A stretch of 64,000 bases of DNA, taken from assembly GCA_021292165.1 (NCBI GenBank), contig CM037877.1:34050197-34114196 (forward strand), given 5' to 3'. Position numbers and translations under genes: made by a program. Numbering within the stretch: the first letter of the stretch is position 1; every line of letters begins with the position of its first letter. This DNA comes from Shinisaurus crocodilurus (lineage: Eukaryota; Chordata; Lepidosauria; Squamata; Shinisauridae). The notes beneath the pieces were generated by a model. It was not told the DNA's origin and did no database searches. It saw only the letters and a program-made list of their open reading frames with translations. Shown piece by piece: positions 25,450 through 64,000 of this stretch.

Positions 25450-27895
25450 AGAGATTGCTAGACCCTCACCCCCAACACAGAGAACTACAATTCCTAGGGT
25501 TCCCTGGGGCAAGGGAATGGCTATTAAACCAGTTTAAATCTGGTGTAGATATCCTTCTGTAAGGTAGAGATGTCCTGTGCTGATGCCCTATTTATTGTTG
25601 TTTTGAAATTCTGTTTCAGCTTGGATACTAAAACATTCCTTGAGTGAGTGATTTGCTTCCAGCACTTGCATTCATACAGCAACTTTCAAATTGGAAAGAA
25701 CCTGCAGAAGGGCTGTATTCCGATATGTTTCAGCAATGCTCAATATATCATGGTAATGGGCAAGCTTGTAAATGTCTCTGCAGAGTTTCTAATTTGCTCT
25801 GAATCACTGTTCTGATTCTCACTCTATAAACAAAACAAGCGTATTTTTTCCCCTTTGGGGGTGTGTGGCATAGCTAGATGCTCACTTTGGACTGCTGCTG
25901 TCATCTACATCTGGGAGATTAGTTCTCGGAATAGGGGCTTACATAAAAATAGAAAGCTCTATTAAAAATCCTGCACAAGTCATTTCAGTCTCCAAAATAT
26001 GACACTCCAAAAAGGTGGCTATTTTCCTGGCACCCAGTGACTGTGCTTACACGATGGACACATCCAACTCTGCTGAATAGTAATTATTGACAGGTCATAA
26101 CCCACAGCTCCTGGTTGGTAGCTGGTGAGTGTATTTCTCTTTAAAATGTATAACTGTTAACTGAAAAGGTCACAGTATGCTTGTTTTGTTCTAGAATGCA
26201 GTTCAGTTAAGTCCACTTCACTTTGGAGTTCAAATGATAGATTATTTCCATTCTTCAGTAAAGTGTGCCCATATTTCTGTGAGATATAATAAGAGATATT
26301 TATACTTAGGCATCTATTTAAGTAGCATCTATTCAGACCTCATGGAGCCTGAATGGAACACCTGACGATTTGTGTATTTATGTGTGTGCTCCACAGGCAG
26401 AGAACTGATCTGGTGACAGATGTGTACGGCAGACTAAAGATGGACCTTATTTGGAATGGGGCCACACTGCTAGAAAGAAGGAACCTGGGGAAGGATAACA
26501 TGTATATACAATGGCAGGAATAGCAGAAATACTGTGAGACATTTCAGTGCTTAACTTGGAACTATTTGTTTGTTACAAAAATTGTCTCAAACACTGAAAA
26601 CCTACACTGAAAACCCAGAACAGGGGTGCAAACAGTGCAGCACATGGGCCACAGATGCCCCTCCTCAGCCCTGTCTGGCAGCCCCAAGACCTCCAGCATC
26701 TTTTGCTGCCAAAAAGGGGGGGGGGGGACAGGAACAATGCTCTAGGAACTCTATGGTTCTTGCCATAGAAGTCTCATTCCTAGAGCATCCCTGGAGTGCC
26801 TGAAGGTTCCTGCCTACTTTCTAGGATGTTGTGGGGATGGTCTAGGAATGTGGCTGTTGCTATAAATCAAAGATCTGCTGCTGCTGGGTGAGGGGTATGT
26901 GCGAGTGGGGGAGTGGTATGTGCATGCGCATACATGTGTACTCATGTGCACCCCCTGCCTGAGCAGCAGACACCCAATGCAACCCTTGGGGCTGAAAAGA
27001 TTATGCACCTTGACTGATGCAATTTAAAATAACCAAACAGCTTGTCTTTCAACATAGCTTATTCCTGAGTCTCTGACCTGGTTCACATGATCAAAATAAG
27101 CCACTGTGGCTTATTTAAATCGTGGTGCATGCTAGGTGTGTACTAGGCGCGATTTCCAGAATTCCAAATAACTCATGGGCAGTTGTAGTGTTATCGGAAG
27201 GTTGTTTCCCCCTCCAGCAAGCCATGCCGCCTGGGTTTGGATGACACAACAAGCCACATCCAGGCGTGATTATGGAACTCACGCCCCGCATTTTGATTGT
27301 GCGAGCCAGTCCACTGAGATAATGCAGCAACTAACTACTGCATAAAATAAGTGTGCATACCAACTAAATCTGAGTGTTGTGAAATGGCTCGAAATCAGCA
27401 AAGCTAGCAAGAAACATTCTGCCATAAAGCACTACTGCTGAAAAAATGCAGTAAAACAGAACAGTTCTGAAGAAGTTGCAGTGGCAAATCTTGTTTGTAA
27501 GTACGGTACTCCTTTAAGAAGATGTAATTTAAGGCTGCTATTACTTTCCCTTTTGAATTAATTCTTGTATCAAAGACAATGTTTTTCAAGCACTTTTTAA
27601 GCAGGCACATCTTTGCCCTGAACTTTGAATTTTTGAACTGCTATATGTATTATGCATATCTCAGCCTCTGTGCACGTCACCTTTGGAAGTTATTCCTCCA
27701 CACATTCAACGAACATACGGATGGGGAGTGGAGTCCATGGGTACTGGCTCCTACCCAAATGTCCCCATCCCCCACCTGCTCTCCTCATGCTTTGGGCAGG
27801 AAGATCTGAAAGGGGAATCTTTGTACATGTGGCTGAATGTGCTTCGAATCCTTCCTGTGATCAGGTCAGGAGCCCCGACTGAGTGCAGTTGTCCA
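25450..27895. other. Unassigned DNA upstream of the DHRS11-carrying element
   Basis: No gene recognised. Joined to 29751 onwards it gives the pre-insertion site CCACCGCATGGAGGATTCTA. Confidence 0.4.
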
Positions 27896-27970
27896 CCGCA
27901 TGGAGGCAGAGGCGTAGCGTGGGGGGTGCAGGGGGGGCCGGCCGCACCGGGCGCAACATCTGGGGGGCGC

Positions 27971-28226
27971 ACTCGCAGCTCTCTGCCCCAGCTCTTCCTC
28001 CTCCTGCTCCCCCCCCCAGAGGCGGCTGCCCTTGGAGAAAGGGGCGATCAGCCGCCCGCCGCCCCCCTCGCTGCTAGCCGCCGCCGCAGCCGCGCCTGCC
28101 CGGGTCGTGCGCCTCGGAGAGGCGCGCGCGGGCGGGGCGGGAGGCGAGGAAGGAGGCGCCAGGCCGGTGCGGTCCGGGGCCGGGCATGCGGAGGGCGAGT
28201 GCAGCCGCAGCGCGGCCGCGTGGGCC
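27971..28226 (+). promoter_or_regulatory. Captured CpG-island upstream region of DHRS11
   Basis: Very CpG-dense sequence directly upstream of the DHRS11-like ATG, including a consensus GC box (GGGCGGGGCGGG, about 28131-28142). It runs without a break from the left TIR to the exon, so the element seems to have taken the 5' UTR and proximal promoter together with the exon. Whether it still drives transcription is unknown. Confidence 0.5.
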
Positions 28227-28358
28227 ATGGAGCGCTGGAAGGGGCGCGTGGCGCTGGTGACATGGCGCCTCGGTGGGCATCGGGGCGGCCGTGGCCCGCG
28301 CCTGGTGCAGCGCGGCATGCAGGTGGTGGGCTGCGCCCGGAGCGTGGACAAGATCGAG
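28227..28358 (+). pseudogene. DHRS11: DHRS11 exon 1 fragment, frameshifted
   Basis: DHRS11 is a cytosolic NADP(H)-dependent short-chain dehydrogenase/reductase acting on steroids and other carbonyl compounds. The fragment starts at ATG 28227 with MERWKGRVALVT and ends LVQRGMQVVGCARSVDKIE, directly followed by GT at 28359-28360 (GAG|GTATGG), a good donor. These match the family N-terminus. Between about 28262 and 28303 the reading is shifted by one base and then restored: one extra base near 28262 and one missing near 28303. In the shifted frame the Rossmann core GASVGIGAAVARA is readable, but in the ATG frame the glycine-rich cofactor motif is lost. The total of 132 nt equals the 44 codons expected. 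A retained donor means DNA-level capture, not a processed mRNA copy. No further DHRS11 exon follows. Confidence 0.85.
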
Positions 28359-28359
28359 G

Positions 28360-29090
28360 TATGGAGGGAGAGCGAGGAGAGAGAGGAAGAAAGAAAGGGA
28401 GGAGAAGAGAGAGAGAGAGAGAGAGAGAGAAGGGGAGGGAGGGAGGAACAAGAGAGGAGAGAGAGAAAGAAGGGAAGGAAGGAAGGAGAAGGGGGAGGGA
28501 GGAAGAGAGAAAGAAAGGAAAAGAAAGAGGAAGGGAGGAAAAGAGGAGCGAGAGAATGAAGGGAAGAGGAAAGATGGGGAATGAGAAAGGGGTAAAGAAA
28601 GTTGGGAGACGAGAAAAGGAAGGATGGAAGGCAGATAGAAAGAAAGAGAAAGGGAGGGAGGCAGGAAAGGAAGATGAGGAAGGAGAGGAAAAAGAGTGAC
28701 CGGGGAAAGGAGAGAAGAAGGAAGGAAGGAAGAAGAAAGAGAAAGAGAGAGAGAAAAGGAAGGACAAAGCGGAGAACAGCAAAGGAGAGAGAAAGGAAAA
28801 TGGGGGAAAGGAGAAAAGAGGAAAGGGAAAAAGGATGGCGAGAGAAAAGGAGGAGAGAGAGAAATGGGAGAGGGTGGGAGGGTGAAGGGAGGAGGGGAGA
28901 AAAGGGGGGGAGAAAGGAAAGAGGAGGGCAAAGAAAGAAGAGGTACATTTTTAAAAAGCCAGGAAAGGAGGAGGGAGAAAGGAAATGGGCTAGAAAAAGA
29001 AGGGAAAGGGGCGTGTGGGGAAATGGGATCGGGGGACCGATGAATGAAGAAATGGAGGAGGCAGGAAGTTGAGTTGAACTTGTTGAAGGG
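28360..29090 (+). repeat. 700-bp polypurine (GA/GGA/GAAA) tract
   Basis: Almost pure A/G on the plus strand, made of imperfect GA, GGGA, GGAA and GAAA units with few pyrimidines. It directly follows the captured splice donor, so it is probably intron 1 of the donor gene, perhaps expanded. Long reading frames on either strand here are low-complexity artefacts. The tract could form triplex or slip during replication. Confidence 0.85.
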
Positions 29091-29145
29091 ACAGGTGGAA
29101 AGCGGGAGGAGGCCCGAGCAGAGCAGAGCAGAGCAGCGCGGGGTG

Positions 29146-29189
29146 TGTCTTCTTCTTCTTCTCCTCCTCCTCCTCCTCCTCCTCCTCTT
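29146..29189 (+). repeat. (CTT)n(CTC)n microsatellite inside the hAT element
   Basis: Short run of CTT then CTC triplets on the opposite purine/pyrimidine polarity from the preceding tract. It closes the polypurine part of the element before the AT-rich right part. Confidence 0.85.
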
Positions 29190-29254
29190 GGGGAGTCTCC
29201 CTTATTGCTTCTCCCTCTTTCTAGACCTCTGTGTGACCTCCCCGAATTTAAATT

Positions 29255-29277
29255 AATCTGTATATTATATACAGATT
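29255..29277. repeat. Perfect odd palindrome in the right part of the hAT element
   Basis: AATCTGTATAT, one T, then ATATACAGATT: an 11-bp perfect stem in the AT-rich right part of the DHRS11-carrying element. Role unknown; subterminal palindromes in hAT elements can be protein-binding sites, but this is only a possibility. Confidence 0.6.
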
Positions 29278-29750
29278 GATATCTTGCACTTCTATTAAAG
29301 AATTACAATTAGAGGTACAGGATTGAGGAAGTTGGCTCCATCTAGCCCAGTCTTGGATCATCTCCAGGGTATGGTTCCATTTTGATGTTTAGTTTTTGTT
29401 CTTGATATTTTTTGTCATTTACGATGGTTGTGAGACGACATATAATAGCATGGCCCATGCTAGGTTACTACATTTGTAGATTTGTATTCATAGACCTGCT
29501 GAAAATGTGGAGAATGTGTAATGCATGTTCGCACTCAATAAAGTGTTTGAAAATAAACTTGTATTTAGATGCATTTTACTTTAATTACATCAGTATTTTC
29601 ATAACAAACAATACATGTGCTTAGGGGGTAAGGGTTTCTTTAACTAATCTAGTGGAAGAGCCTTGAGTGCTAAAATCCACGGGTTAGGGGGCGCAAATTA
29701 CTTGCCTTGCCCCGGGTGCTGACAACCCACGCTACGCCACTGCATGGAGG

Positions 29751-31925
29751 ATTCTAAGCATGTTCAGCTGAACTCACAAAGATTCCCACTTCAAATTAAT
29801 GGAAAGAATGTAAACAAATATGGGCCTAAAATTATCGAAAGGTATGGGTGAAATGGGAAAAATATGTGGTTAAAAAGTTTGTCTCTTAGATAAATAGGTG
29901 GAAAGAAGCTAGGGATTTTTGCTAAAAATGAGTAGAAATCTTTAATATTGTTTAATTAGAAGAATTGGTATCTATGTTTAAGGTTAAAATGATGTTTTGT
30001 GAACTTGTGAGTTTGATGAACAAGAAGAATAAGAGTTGACAATAGAAAAAAGAGAAATATCTTTGTATCTATAGAGTATTTAATGTTACTTATACTTTTG
30101 TGGAAAAATCGGAAGTCCATTCTAGGTTAGTTTTTGTTGTTTTTGTATTGTTTCTCTGTTTTTTACTTTTTATGTTTGTTTAGTTTTGCTTTGCTTTTCT
30201 TTCAAAATAAAAAAAATTAAGCACAACGAAGATTCCCAGTTCAGACCTTTCCACTCAATCTCTGAAGGTCAGGGGTGGAGCCAGAAGGGAGGTGGGACTA
30301 GTTTGCACACCTGTGGATGCCCCCCCCCCGTACACATTATGAAATAACCTCTGAAGAGAGCTAATATCTTAATTGGAGAATTACATACTTCAGGATGGAT
30401 CCAAAGATGCTTTGTGTGAGTAGGGACTCTTCTGTTTCTGCAAAGTGGCCCCCTGAATTTTGTAGAGCCAGCCCTCCTTGTGTAGTCCCCCATGCCTCCT
30501 CCCAAACTGTTCTGAGGAGCGGTCCCCTCACCCTCAAGGGTAGATTTTGAGGAATGCAGTGGACTGAAATGGGCAGGGCAGGGCGGGGGGAAGGCTGAGA
30601 ACAACCTGGTTGTGTTTCTCTGTATCCAGTTGTGATGACTCATTGGGGGTTGCCAAGGCATGCCCTGCCCTAGGAGACCCCATTGCAGATCTTTCACTCA
30701 TAAGGCCACTCACCTCTCAACTGAGGCAGCAAGAAGTGCAGACAGACTGTTTGGGATAGACAACAAATGGGGGAGGATGGAGAGAGGACAGAGAAGAGAA
30801 AACAAGGCAGAGAAAAACAGAGGCAGAAGTAGGAGGAGAGGCGGGGAGTTGGAGGAGGGAGAGAAAGCGAAACCACGTGGAGGAAAAGAACAGCAGGCAA
30901 GCAGAGGGAGCCAAGACGGAAGAGTTGTTTCAACCCCTACCCAGATTCCTGCAGCAGAAAGGGTGGAGAAACCTATACCTACCTGGCAGGAAGAAACAGA
31001 CCCCAGGGGTGCAGGTGAAAAGATACCTAGTAGAAGAACTTGCTCATCTCCAGATTGGGTGAGCTTCTGGGGGAAAGACATAGGCACATCCTACCATAAT
31101 CCTGTGCATGCTGACTATCCCGGTCCTCAGTGGAGCTGGTAAAAAAAAAAACAATGTCTCAAGGAACAACACCAGGGTGAAGACAAGGAGAAGGAACTCC
31201 TGGCCCAGAGCTCATTTCCCCAACAGACTTAGAAGACAGAGGGAGCAGAGGGGCTTACCTGGCTGCAAGCCAAAGCTCACAACCTTAAAGGGATTTTGTT
31301 ATAAGAAACTTCTGTGAGGCATTTCCCTGGCTTGGGGGTTTATACTTTATTTTGTGTTGGCTGCCAGTGCTGTAACTTGATGCCTTTTGAGTGATCCATA
31401 TAAGTTTCTGTAAGAATTCGTGGCCACGTGATCTGTGGATTAAGGGAACAAGGAGGATTTGATGTGCCTCTTCCAATGGACTCGCGGACACCAATCCTTC
31501 ATTTTTAACAGCTCTTTGGAGGATATTTATGTAGTACAAGGACAAGAAAGGTTGCTTCTATTGTCTGAAGGCACACAACACCGCAACCTTGCTGAAGCTA
31601 ATTAGGTTTGTGTCTGGTCAGTGCCCAGATGGGAGTCTGAGAACTCCACACAGGGTAACTTTAGATCCATTGAAGTGAGGATGGATATAACCATAATAAA
31701 TAAATGAATAACTCCTTTCTGTCATCTGAAATTTTACAATCACTAAGTTAAGAAGACATCATTTCAAGCAGGACTTGCTTCCCTTTGAAATGAAGGCTAG
31801 GGCTGGGGAGCAACAGAGATTTGACCAAAACTTTGTGAAACTCACCCAGTAATTCAAGGAGAAATGGTTTCATGGGAATGGCCCCGCCCACAACTTTGTT
31901 TCTCTGAATCATTTTGCTGATTCTT
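29751..31925. other. Unassigned DNA
   Basis: Contains an AT-rich stretch (29820-30220) and a purine-rich stretch (30740-30920). No exon with splice sites and domain similarity. An LTR-like origin of 30700-31550 is possible but unsupported. Confidence 0.35.
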
Positions 31926-62879: not shown

Positions 62880-64000
62880 GTCTAGGGCCTGAAAATGTGC
62901 CTTGGAGGGGAGTCATGGGGCCAAGTGGGGGGTTCTGTGGGGGGCCCAATTAGTGTAATAACGGGTAGAGGGAGATATGGCATTGGGAGGAGGACTAGCC
63001 AGGTAAGGGGAACACAGCCGAGAAACTTAATGGTTGTCCCTTGTTCCGGCCCTCCTCACACCCACAGGTTTGGTGGTTGCCCTATCAGCCTGCCCTCGGG
63101 TCTCTGGATGCTGCTTCTAAATGCCAGATTGGTGCAAAATAAAACCTCCCTCATCCATGATTTAATAGTGGATGAGGCGGCCGATCTGGCATGCATTACC
63201 AAGACCTGGGTGGGAGAACAGGGAGGAGTTAGTCTCTCCCAGCTTTGCCCACCGGGGTACTTGGTGCAGCATCAGGGTAGAGCTGAGGGCCGGGCCGGGG
63301 GGGGGGGGTTGCTGTGGTCTATAGGAATTCTATCTCTTTCTCCAGGCTCCCTGTCCATCTGAGCACTGGTCTGGAGTGTTTGCACCTTTTGTTGGGCCAG
63401 TGGGACAGATTAGGGATTCTGCTGGTGTACTGCCCACCCCACTGCTCAACAGACTCCCTGACTGAGCTGACGGAGGTGGTCTCGCTGGCGATGCTGAGGC
63501 CCCCCAGGCTGTTGGTCCTGGGGGATGTTAACATCCATGCTGAGGGCACCTTGTCTGGTGTGGCTCAGGAATTCATGGACTCCATGACAACCATGGGACT
63601 GTCCCAACATGTCATCGGCCCAACACATGTAGCAGGGCACACTCGACCTGTTTTTTTCAGCCAAGCATGGAGATGGTGATCTGAAGGTGGGGGACTTTGA
63701 ATCAGTCCCCTTGCCATGGTCAGATCACTACCTGCTGAGATTTAAGCTAACGGCAGCTTTCCCGCTCTGCAAGGGTGGGGGACCTATTAAGATGGTCCGC
63801 CCCCGGAGGCTGATGGATCCGGATGGTTTCCAGAGGACCCTTGGGGGGTTTCTGGCTGATATAGCTGGCGGTCCTGTCGAATCCCTGGTTGATCTCTGGA
63901 ATAGACTAGAGAGATGACCCGGGCGGTTGACACGATCGCTCCTGAGTGCCCTCTCTGTAGTAGAGCTCGTACGGCTCCATGGTATACCCCAGAGCTGAGA
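62880..64000 (+). mobile_element. 5' part of an L2/CR1-type LINE ORF2 (endonuclease domain), runs off the window
   Basis: The frames together give an APE-type endonuclease of the exonuclease-endonuclease-phosphatase fold, which nicks target DNA for retrotransposition. In order: LNARLVQNKTSLIHDL, the DLACITKTW block (usually ETW), LLVYCPPHCSTDSL, the catalytic-type LVLGDVNIHAEG (usually GDFNxH), THVAGHTRPVFF, the WSDHYLLRF block (catalytic SDH), MVRPRRLMDPDGF, and MTRAVDTIAPE...APWYTPELR at the edge. The frame shifts at the G run 63298-63308 and again before 63687 and near 63915, so this copy is defective. The reverse transcriptase would lie beyond 64000. The 62880-63060 leader may be 5' UTR. 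Confidence 0.85.

Follow-up and report, generated by a model that had tools for sequence, protein, structure and literature searches.

A multicopy Pack-hAT family carrying the 5' end of the DHRS11 gene in the genome of Shinisaurus crocodilurus

The non-autonomous hAT element of 1836 bp located at 27907-29742 of the window (the whole 64-kb stretch of DNA that was analysed) belongs to a multicopy Pack-hAT family in which CAGWGGCGTAGCGTGGG ends surround a block of the DHRS11 gene. The joint explanation judged highly probable is that of a multicopy Pack-hAT whose DHRS11 block would have been captured by template switching, which would be mobilised in trans, and for which the block would be a passenger cargo that possibly gives rise to a short RNA.

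Boundaries and parts of the element

The first-pass annotation of this DNA, made from the window alone, had proposed a hAT-type transposon with matching TIRs and an 8-bp duplication. Both were recovered: the duplication of CATGGAGG is perfect, and CAGAGGCGTAGCGTGGG matches the reverse complement of CAGTGGCGTAGCGTGGG at 16/17 positions with a single mismatch (Table 1). The 13-base TIR core GGCGTAGCGTGGG has exactly two occurrences in the 64 kb, the 11 further sites listed having 3 mismatches each, and chance TIRs were rejected on these grounds. hAT elements have short TIRs beginning with CAG, and in the present family TIRs of this type (CAGAGGCGTAGCGTGGG and CAGTGGCGTAGCGTGGG) are accompanied by an 8-bp TSD in 44/45 two-ended copies. 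Helitrons are not known to create a TSD, and the element departs from them in having both TIRs and 8-bp TSDs. HelibatN3-like Helitron insertions are described as falling between A and T (PMC4778049).

Table 1. Features of the element and its borders in the window (positions counted from the first letter of the 64-kb stretch).
Feature	Positions	Strand	Remark
Left target-site duplication CATGGAGG	27899..27906	.	
Entire non-autonomous hAT element, 1836 bp	27907..29742	+	Perfect 8-bp TSDs at boundaries, 44/45 two-ended copies
Left TIR CAGAGGCGTAGCGTGGG	27907..27923	+	CAGAGG start in 45/45 copies
hAT 5' end, ~65 bp, common to the DHRS11-free sibling	27907..27970	+	15/15 sibling loci match consensus 1-62 or beyond
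~22 bp at the 5' breakpoint	27971..27992	.	Outside both sibling and parental BLAST alignments
Captured 5' flank of DHRS11, with presumed promoter and presumed 5' UTR, CpG-island-like, GC boxes	27993..28226	+	
Captured DHRS11 exon 1, 44 codons	28227..28358	+	Window copy with +1 and -1 shifts, consensus intact
GT splice donor in phase 0, taken over from parental exon 1	28359..28360	+	Kept in 37/45 copies
Captured proximal part of DHRS11 intron 1 with its purine tract	28359..29244	+	
Candidate internal splice acceptor derived from DHRS11 intron 1, a pyrimidine-rich tract with terminal TAG	29205..29224	+	
Interior 250 bp outside the DHRS11 block	29245..29494	+	Absent from the sole complete sibling (L099)
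hAT 3' end, 248 bp	29495..29742	+	Consensus 99.2% identical to sibling L099
Pair of poly(A) signals, AATAAA at 29537 and at 29552	29537..29557	+	First signal and context kept in 43/45 copies
Right TIR CAGTGGCGTAGCGTGGG	29726..29742	-	
Right target-site duplication CATGGAGG	29743..29750	.	

Between the TIRs, the CpG island with a GC box, the ATG, the 44-codon DHRS11-like exon and the GT donor that had been described were all found to be present. Consensus positions 89-440 are CpG-island-like, with a GC content of 0.80 and a CpG o/e of 0.96. The frame of 44 codons, which runs from the ATG at 28227 to the GT at 28359, matches human DHRS11 with a phmmer E of 3.7e-7 to PDB 1xg5 and a tblastn E of 4e-9 to a human DHRS11 query sequence. 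The exact 5' breakpoint of the block is uncertain because of its C/T-rich context.

Ten ORFs of the window were scanned with Pfam; for the four that lie inside the element no match fell below E 0.1, and no transposase domain was recognised. Neither these ORFs (Pfam) nor the complete sibling described below, which has no long ORF, provided an autonomous partner or transposase. Viral contigs searched with the 3' end of the element gave 0 matches. In the surrounding DNA, the window copy has split another inverted repeat with 54-nt arms that are 74% complementary (27804-27857 and 29743-29796), and positions 63314-63679 display a weak, sub-threshold similarity to the endonuclease/reverse-transcriptase family PF14529 (E 8e-4), likely a LINE remnant.

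Family copies, parental gene and DHRS11-free sibling

All genome searches were confined to the genome of the window (2.19 Gb). The whole-element search returned 2072 first-look candidates, many of which may be purine repeats, and among the best 40, which were scored, at least 29 near-full-length matches with 91-100% identity were distributed over many contigs. The exon-region search returned 271 candidates, a figure made up of unscored candidates apart from the 40 that were scored, with 41 matches listed at 92-100% identity. From these lists, 48 exon-bearing loci, mostly top-scoring, were analysed, namely 28 of the 29 near-full-length matches and 20 further exon-region stretches; L040 (C1385:142-318), which lies at a contig edge, was left out, and seven other loci from the exon-region search coincided with places already included. 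Both ends could be paired in 45 of the 48 loci (all but L047, L049 and L063), and a perfect 8-bp duplication borders 44 of these 45 two-ended copies, the exception being L062 with 3 of 8. The target octamers are different in all 45. One and the same chimera is thus present at 45 sites with 45 distinct octamers, as in multicopy Pack-TIRs, and it follows that the chimera transposed as a unit. The capture and spread put forward in the first-pass annotation are therefore borne out: the same DHRS11 block recurs in numerous copies bordered by TSDs, and a parental gene exists elsewhere in the genome. A search with the 3' end of the element returned 964 candidates, 40 of which were scored, and in the sample of 19 loci that were in neither earlier list the junction between DHRS11 and the hAT 3' part was the same in 19/19.

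The 3' part of the 45 copies has a median distance to the consensus of 0.41%, and the burst of copies consequently looks young, with the reservation that the copies are mostly top-scoring, which biases the values for divergence and intactness towards young ones. The outlier L061, at 21.5% from the consensus, owes its value to an alignment that spans a deletion. Variants shared between copies suggest several subfamilies. Rearranged copies were also observed: L047 consists of two 5' halves of the element, head-out and inverted, ~5 bp apart, while L052 is enlarged internally by ~1 kb and L058 by ~0.4 kb, the TSDs of both still being perfect.

The parental gene was located with residues 50-260 of human DHRS11, for which 14 candidates were returned and all scored; 4/4 matches fell on contig C1107. 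In the 40 kb around the match, seven segments cover DHRS11 residues 6-260 with exons 2 onwards in place, exon 1 is on the minus strand at approximately C1107:182130-182261, and no family end was found except for one chance-like site with 3 mismatches ~31 kb off. Homology between consensus and parent is continuous from consensus positions 89 to 1321 and defines a captured block of ~1.25 kb, in which the 5' flank is followed by exon 1 with its phase-0 donor and by 0.9 kb of intron 1. Beyond what had first been annotated, captured DHRS11 intron 1 extends to 29244 and takes in the purine tract. Exon 1 and the donor are identical to the parent at 135/135 bases, and the unique stretches differ by 4 substitutions in 478 aligned bases (99.2% identity), all of them in the 5' flank. 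The length ratio is 1233/1382 = 0.89. Over the whole alignment the identity is only 79%, owing to the numerous indels in the repeat-rich purine tract. The parental intron 1 has the donor GAG/GTATGG and the acceptor TTGCAG/AAATTG and is in phase 0; the GT of the element is therefore the parental donor.

The family starts with CAGAGG in 45/45 members. An exact 35-base motif beginning with CAGTGG was found at 15 sites in the genome, with no control match, and at 15/15 of these loci the first 62-70 bases are common with the Pack element, a single mismatch at position 4 being present in most. Within the 617 bp examined per locus, an unrelated interior lacking DHRS11 follows. The only sibling read complete, L099, measures 2089 bp, has the TSD AGTTCAGG, and its last 248 bp are 99.2% identical to the Pack consensus. 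In this copy the ends are shared at both sides, so that these hAT ends also exist on an element lacking DHRS11, which is the support that the first-pass annotation had looked for in parent hAT copies. The sibling, which lacks a long ORF, appears itself to be non-autonomous. An Rfam search of L099 gave 0 matches. The 1.8-kb interior of L099 (L099:82-1857) has a donor-like site, GTAAGTG, near its 5' end, and this interior may be a second captured segment or a hAT interior. At another place (C4:154468965-154472925, L090 and L091) two sibling 5' ends face each other ~3.9 kb apart with the octamer CTTACCAC on both sides, as if an element with two 5'-type ends had transposed.

Among the criteria set out for Pack-TIRs by Tan et al. 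2021 (PMC8277862) are an internal non-TE sequence of 100-5000 bp between the ends of one TIR element, a unique parental copy with at least 90% identity and a length ratio of 80-120%, and a parental copy without flanking TEs within 100 bp. Here, a non-TE DHRS11 block of ~1.25 kb lies between ends common with the DHRS11-free sibling, and it is by comparison with this sibling that the ends were defined. A DHRS11 match alone could also signify that the insertion is part of the DHRS11 gene, a segmental duplication or a retrocopy, which is extremely improbable since the homology stops within the element and the octamers differ between copies. A retrocopy was rejected because the captured block includes intron 1, and a DHRS11 gene in place was rejected because exons 2 onwards, named in the first-pass annotation as the downstream sequence to be feared for its reading, are absent from the 64-kb window by tblastn. 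It is likewise very improbable that a resident hAT received DHRS11 DNA during break repair and that the block never moved as cargo. Such in-place gap filling is given as the origin of most single-copy animal Pack-TIRs (Tan et al. 2021, PMC8277862), but the chimera is found at 45 sites with 45 octamers and with the same 3' junction at 19/19 more loci. This multicopy evidence led to its rejection for the window copy, and gap filling could still describe the first capture event.

State of the captured exon and possible transcription

The two compensating 1-base shifts reported in the first-pass annotation are real in the window copy, where the frame is broken. The +1 insertion occurs in 1/45 copies, i.e. 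in the window copy only, the -1 loss in the C run in 5/45 (L001, L017, L046, L055 and L057), and the two are combined in the window copy only, the consensus having neither. Since the consensus exon is intact and identical to the parent, frame loss is a trait of the window copy and some others and not of the family. The overall interpretation of the first-pass annotation stands as regards capture and spread but not as regards frame loss as a family trait. The GT donor is retained in 37/45 copies and is taken away together with the exon end by a common 18-bp deletion in 8/45 (L008, L011, L012, L018, L021, L022, L024 and L026), while a change of ATG to ACG is common to 6/45. Subfamilies without the ATG or without the donor spread too.

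Maintenance of the copies by selection for the DHRS11 peptide, that is for a coding function, is improbable. The parental 44 residues are encoded exactly by 16/45 copies, and in the 30 indel-free donor-bearing exons the distinct changes, 9 nonsynonymous vs 6 synonymous, are slightly richer in synonymous ones than the 290 nonsynonymous vs 106 synonymous changes possible in the exon. These counts are, however, too small for a verdict on purifying selection in either direction (CpG transitions N:S being 7:2 observed vs 23:13 possible), ATG-less and donor-less subfamilies amplify, and the near-identity of copies is accounted for by youth. The captured CpG-rich 5' flank may start transcripts at some sites. 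These would most likely splice to the candidate acceptor of the element at 29224 (CTTCTCCCTCTTTCTAG), which is the best-ranked internal AG by pyrimidine content and is kept in 43/45 copies, and would end at AATAAA, giving a short two-exon RNA; a consensus transcript spliced in this way is predicted to encode the 44 residues followed by TSV and then a stop. Now and then the donor could instead be spliced to a host exon further downstream, likewise in phase 0. The candidate acceptor at 29224 and the AATAAA signals at 29537 and 29552 lie 3' of the donor and could end transcripts inside the element, and exon trapping of host genes would have to compete with them.

A mobile exon trap, in which the promoter would fire and the exon 1 donor would splice into host exons to create chimeric genes with a DHRS11 N-terminus, as the first-pass annotation had it, is conceivable but rather unlikely. 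An indel-free open exon 1 with both ATG and GT donor is present in 24/45 copies (the frame-shifted window copy not being counted), the phase-0 donor is identical to the parental one, and no ATG lies upstream in the consensus. HelibatN3 of bats, with a similar cargo, is described as driving chimeric transcripts (PMC4778049). These points have to be weighed against the candidate acceptor and the poly(A) signal 3' of the donor, each kept in 43/45 copies, against a donor of only medium strength (7.65 of 12.62 by a scoring matrix), and against the upstream ATG at 28186 in the window copy itself.

Origin, related systems and significance

The mobility of the Pack-hAT family would be due to a hAT transposase acting in trans on its ends and also moving the DHRS11-free sibling. 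The capture itself was probably the result of template switching from the hAT to DHRS11 and back, near or within a hAT, and was then followed by transposition, in line with the FoSTeST model (template switching, then transposition) proposed for multicopy Pack-TIRs by Tan et al. 2021 (PMC8277862). As subfamilies without ATG or donor also spread, the DHRS11 cargo would be a passenger for mobility.

Vertebrate Pack-hATs are not new, since 208/370 animal Pack-TIRs are counted as hATs in PMC8277862, whereas multicopy cases represent only 4 of the 281 unique animal Pack-TIRs and tend, according to the same source, to take GC-rich regions. The nearest hAT, Pack-hAT-N8_XT of the western clawed frog, likewise has a host-gene 5' end between hAT TIRs and copies with distinct TSDs, but its cargo is described as a 291-bp piece of 5' UTR at three places (PMC8277862), whereas the block here measures ~1.25 kb, combines a coding exon and its donor with 5' flank and intron sequence, and is present in 45 two-ended copies and with 271 candidates, 40 of them scored. 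Among vertebrates, the capture of gene starts with large-scale spread is documented for bat Helitrons, and HelibatN3 resembles the present family in having a promoter, a start codon and a donor as cargo amplified in a vertebrate genome, in its case the NUBPL promoter, 6 codons and a splice donor (PMC4778049). It is a rolling-circle Helitron without TIRs whose transcripts were demonstrated (PMC4778049), whereas those of the hAT element are putative; the latter differs further by its whole 44-codon exon and by its own candidate acceptor and poly(A) signals. Ssk-FB4 of Drosophila is also a multicopy TIR transposon with a host gene and its 5' upstream region; it is reported with a nearly whole gene, protein evidence, four copies in the surveyed populations, TSDs of 9-10 bp and TIRs of about 700 bp (PMC8277862). 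In the open-licence literature, nothing relevant on DHRS11 with transposons was found, judged by titles, and searches on squamate or lizard hAT, transduplication and captured-exon hAT returned no comparable case. A hAT family of such size with a 5' flank, a whole first coding exon and a donor had no counterpart among the cases compared.

Plant Pack-TYPE elements belong mostly to superfamilies other than hAT. The DHRS11 family is similar to Pack-MULEs and other Pack-TYPE elements as non-autonomous DNA transposons shuffling gene fragments, and differs from them in that they are elements of plants (PMC8903248).

A currently or very recently active Pack-hAT might seed hundreds of mini-genes made of CpG-island promoter, start exon and phase-0 donor across one genome, some of which would drive chimeric transcripts of neighbouring genes, a view that is conceivable but rather unlikely. 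If true, each module with its own acceptor and poly(A) signal would be a self-contained mobile mini-gene. The family, apparently amplified recently in a genome that also contains its parental gene and a sibling free of cargo, offers a clean natural system in which the subfamilies lacking the donor or the ATG provide internal controls for the effect that scattered promoters may have on host transcription.
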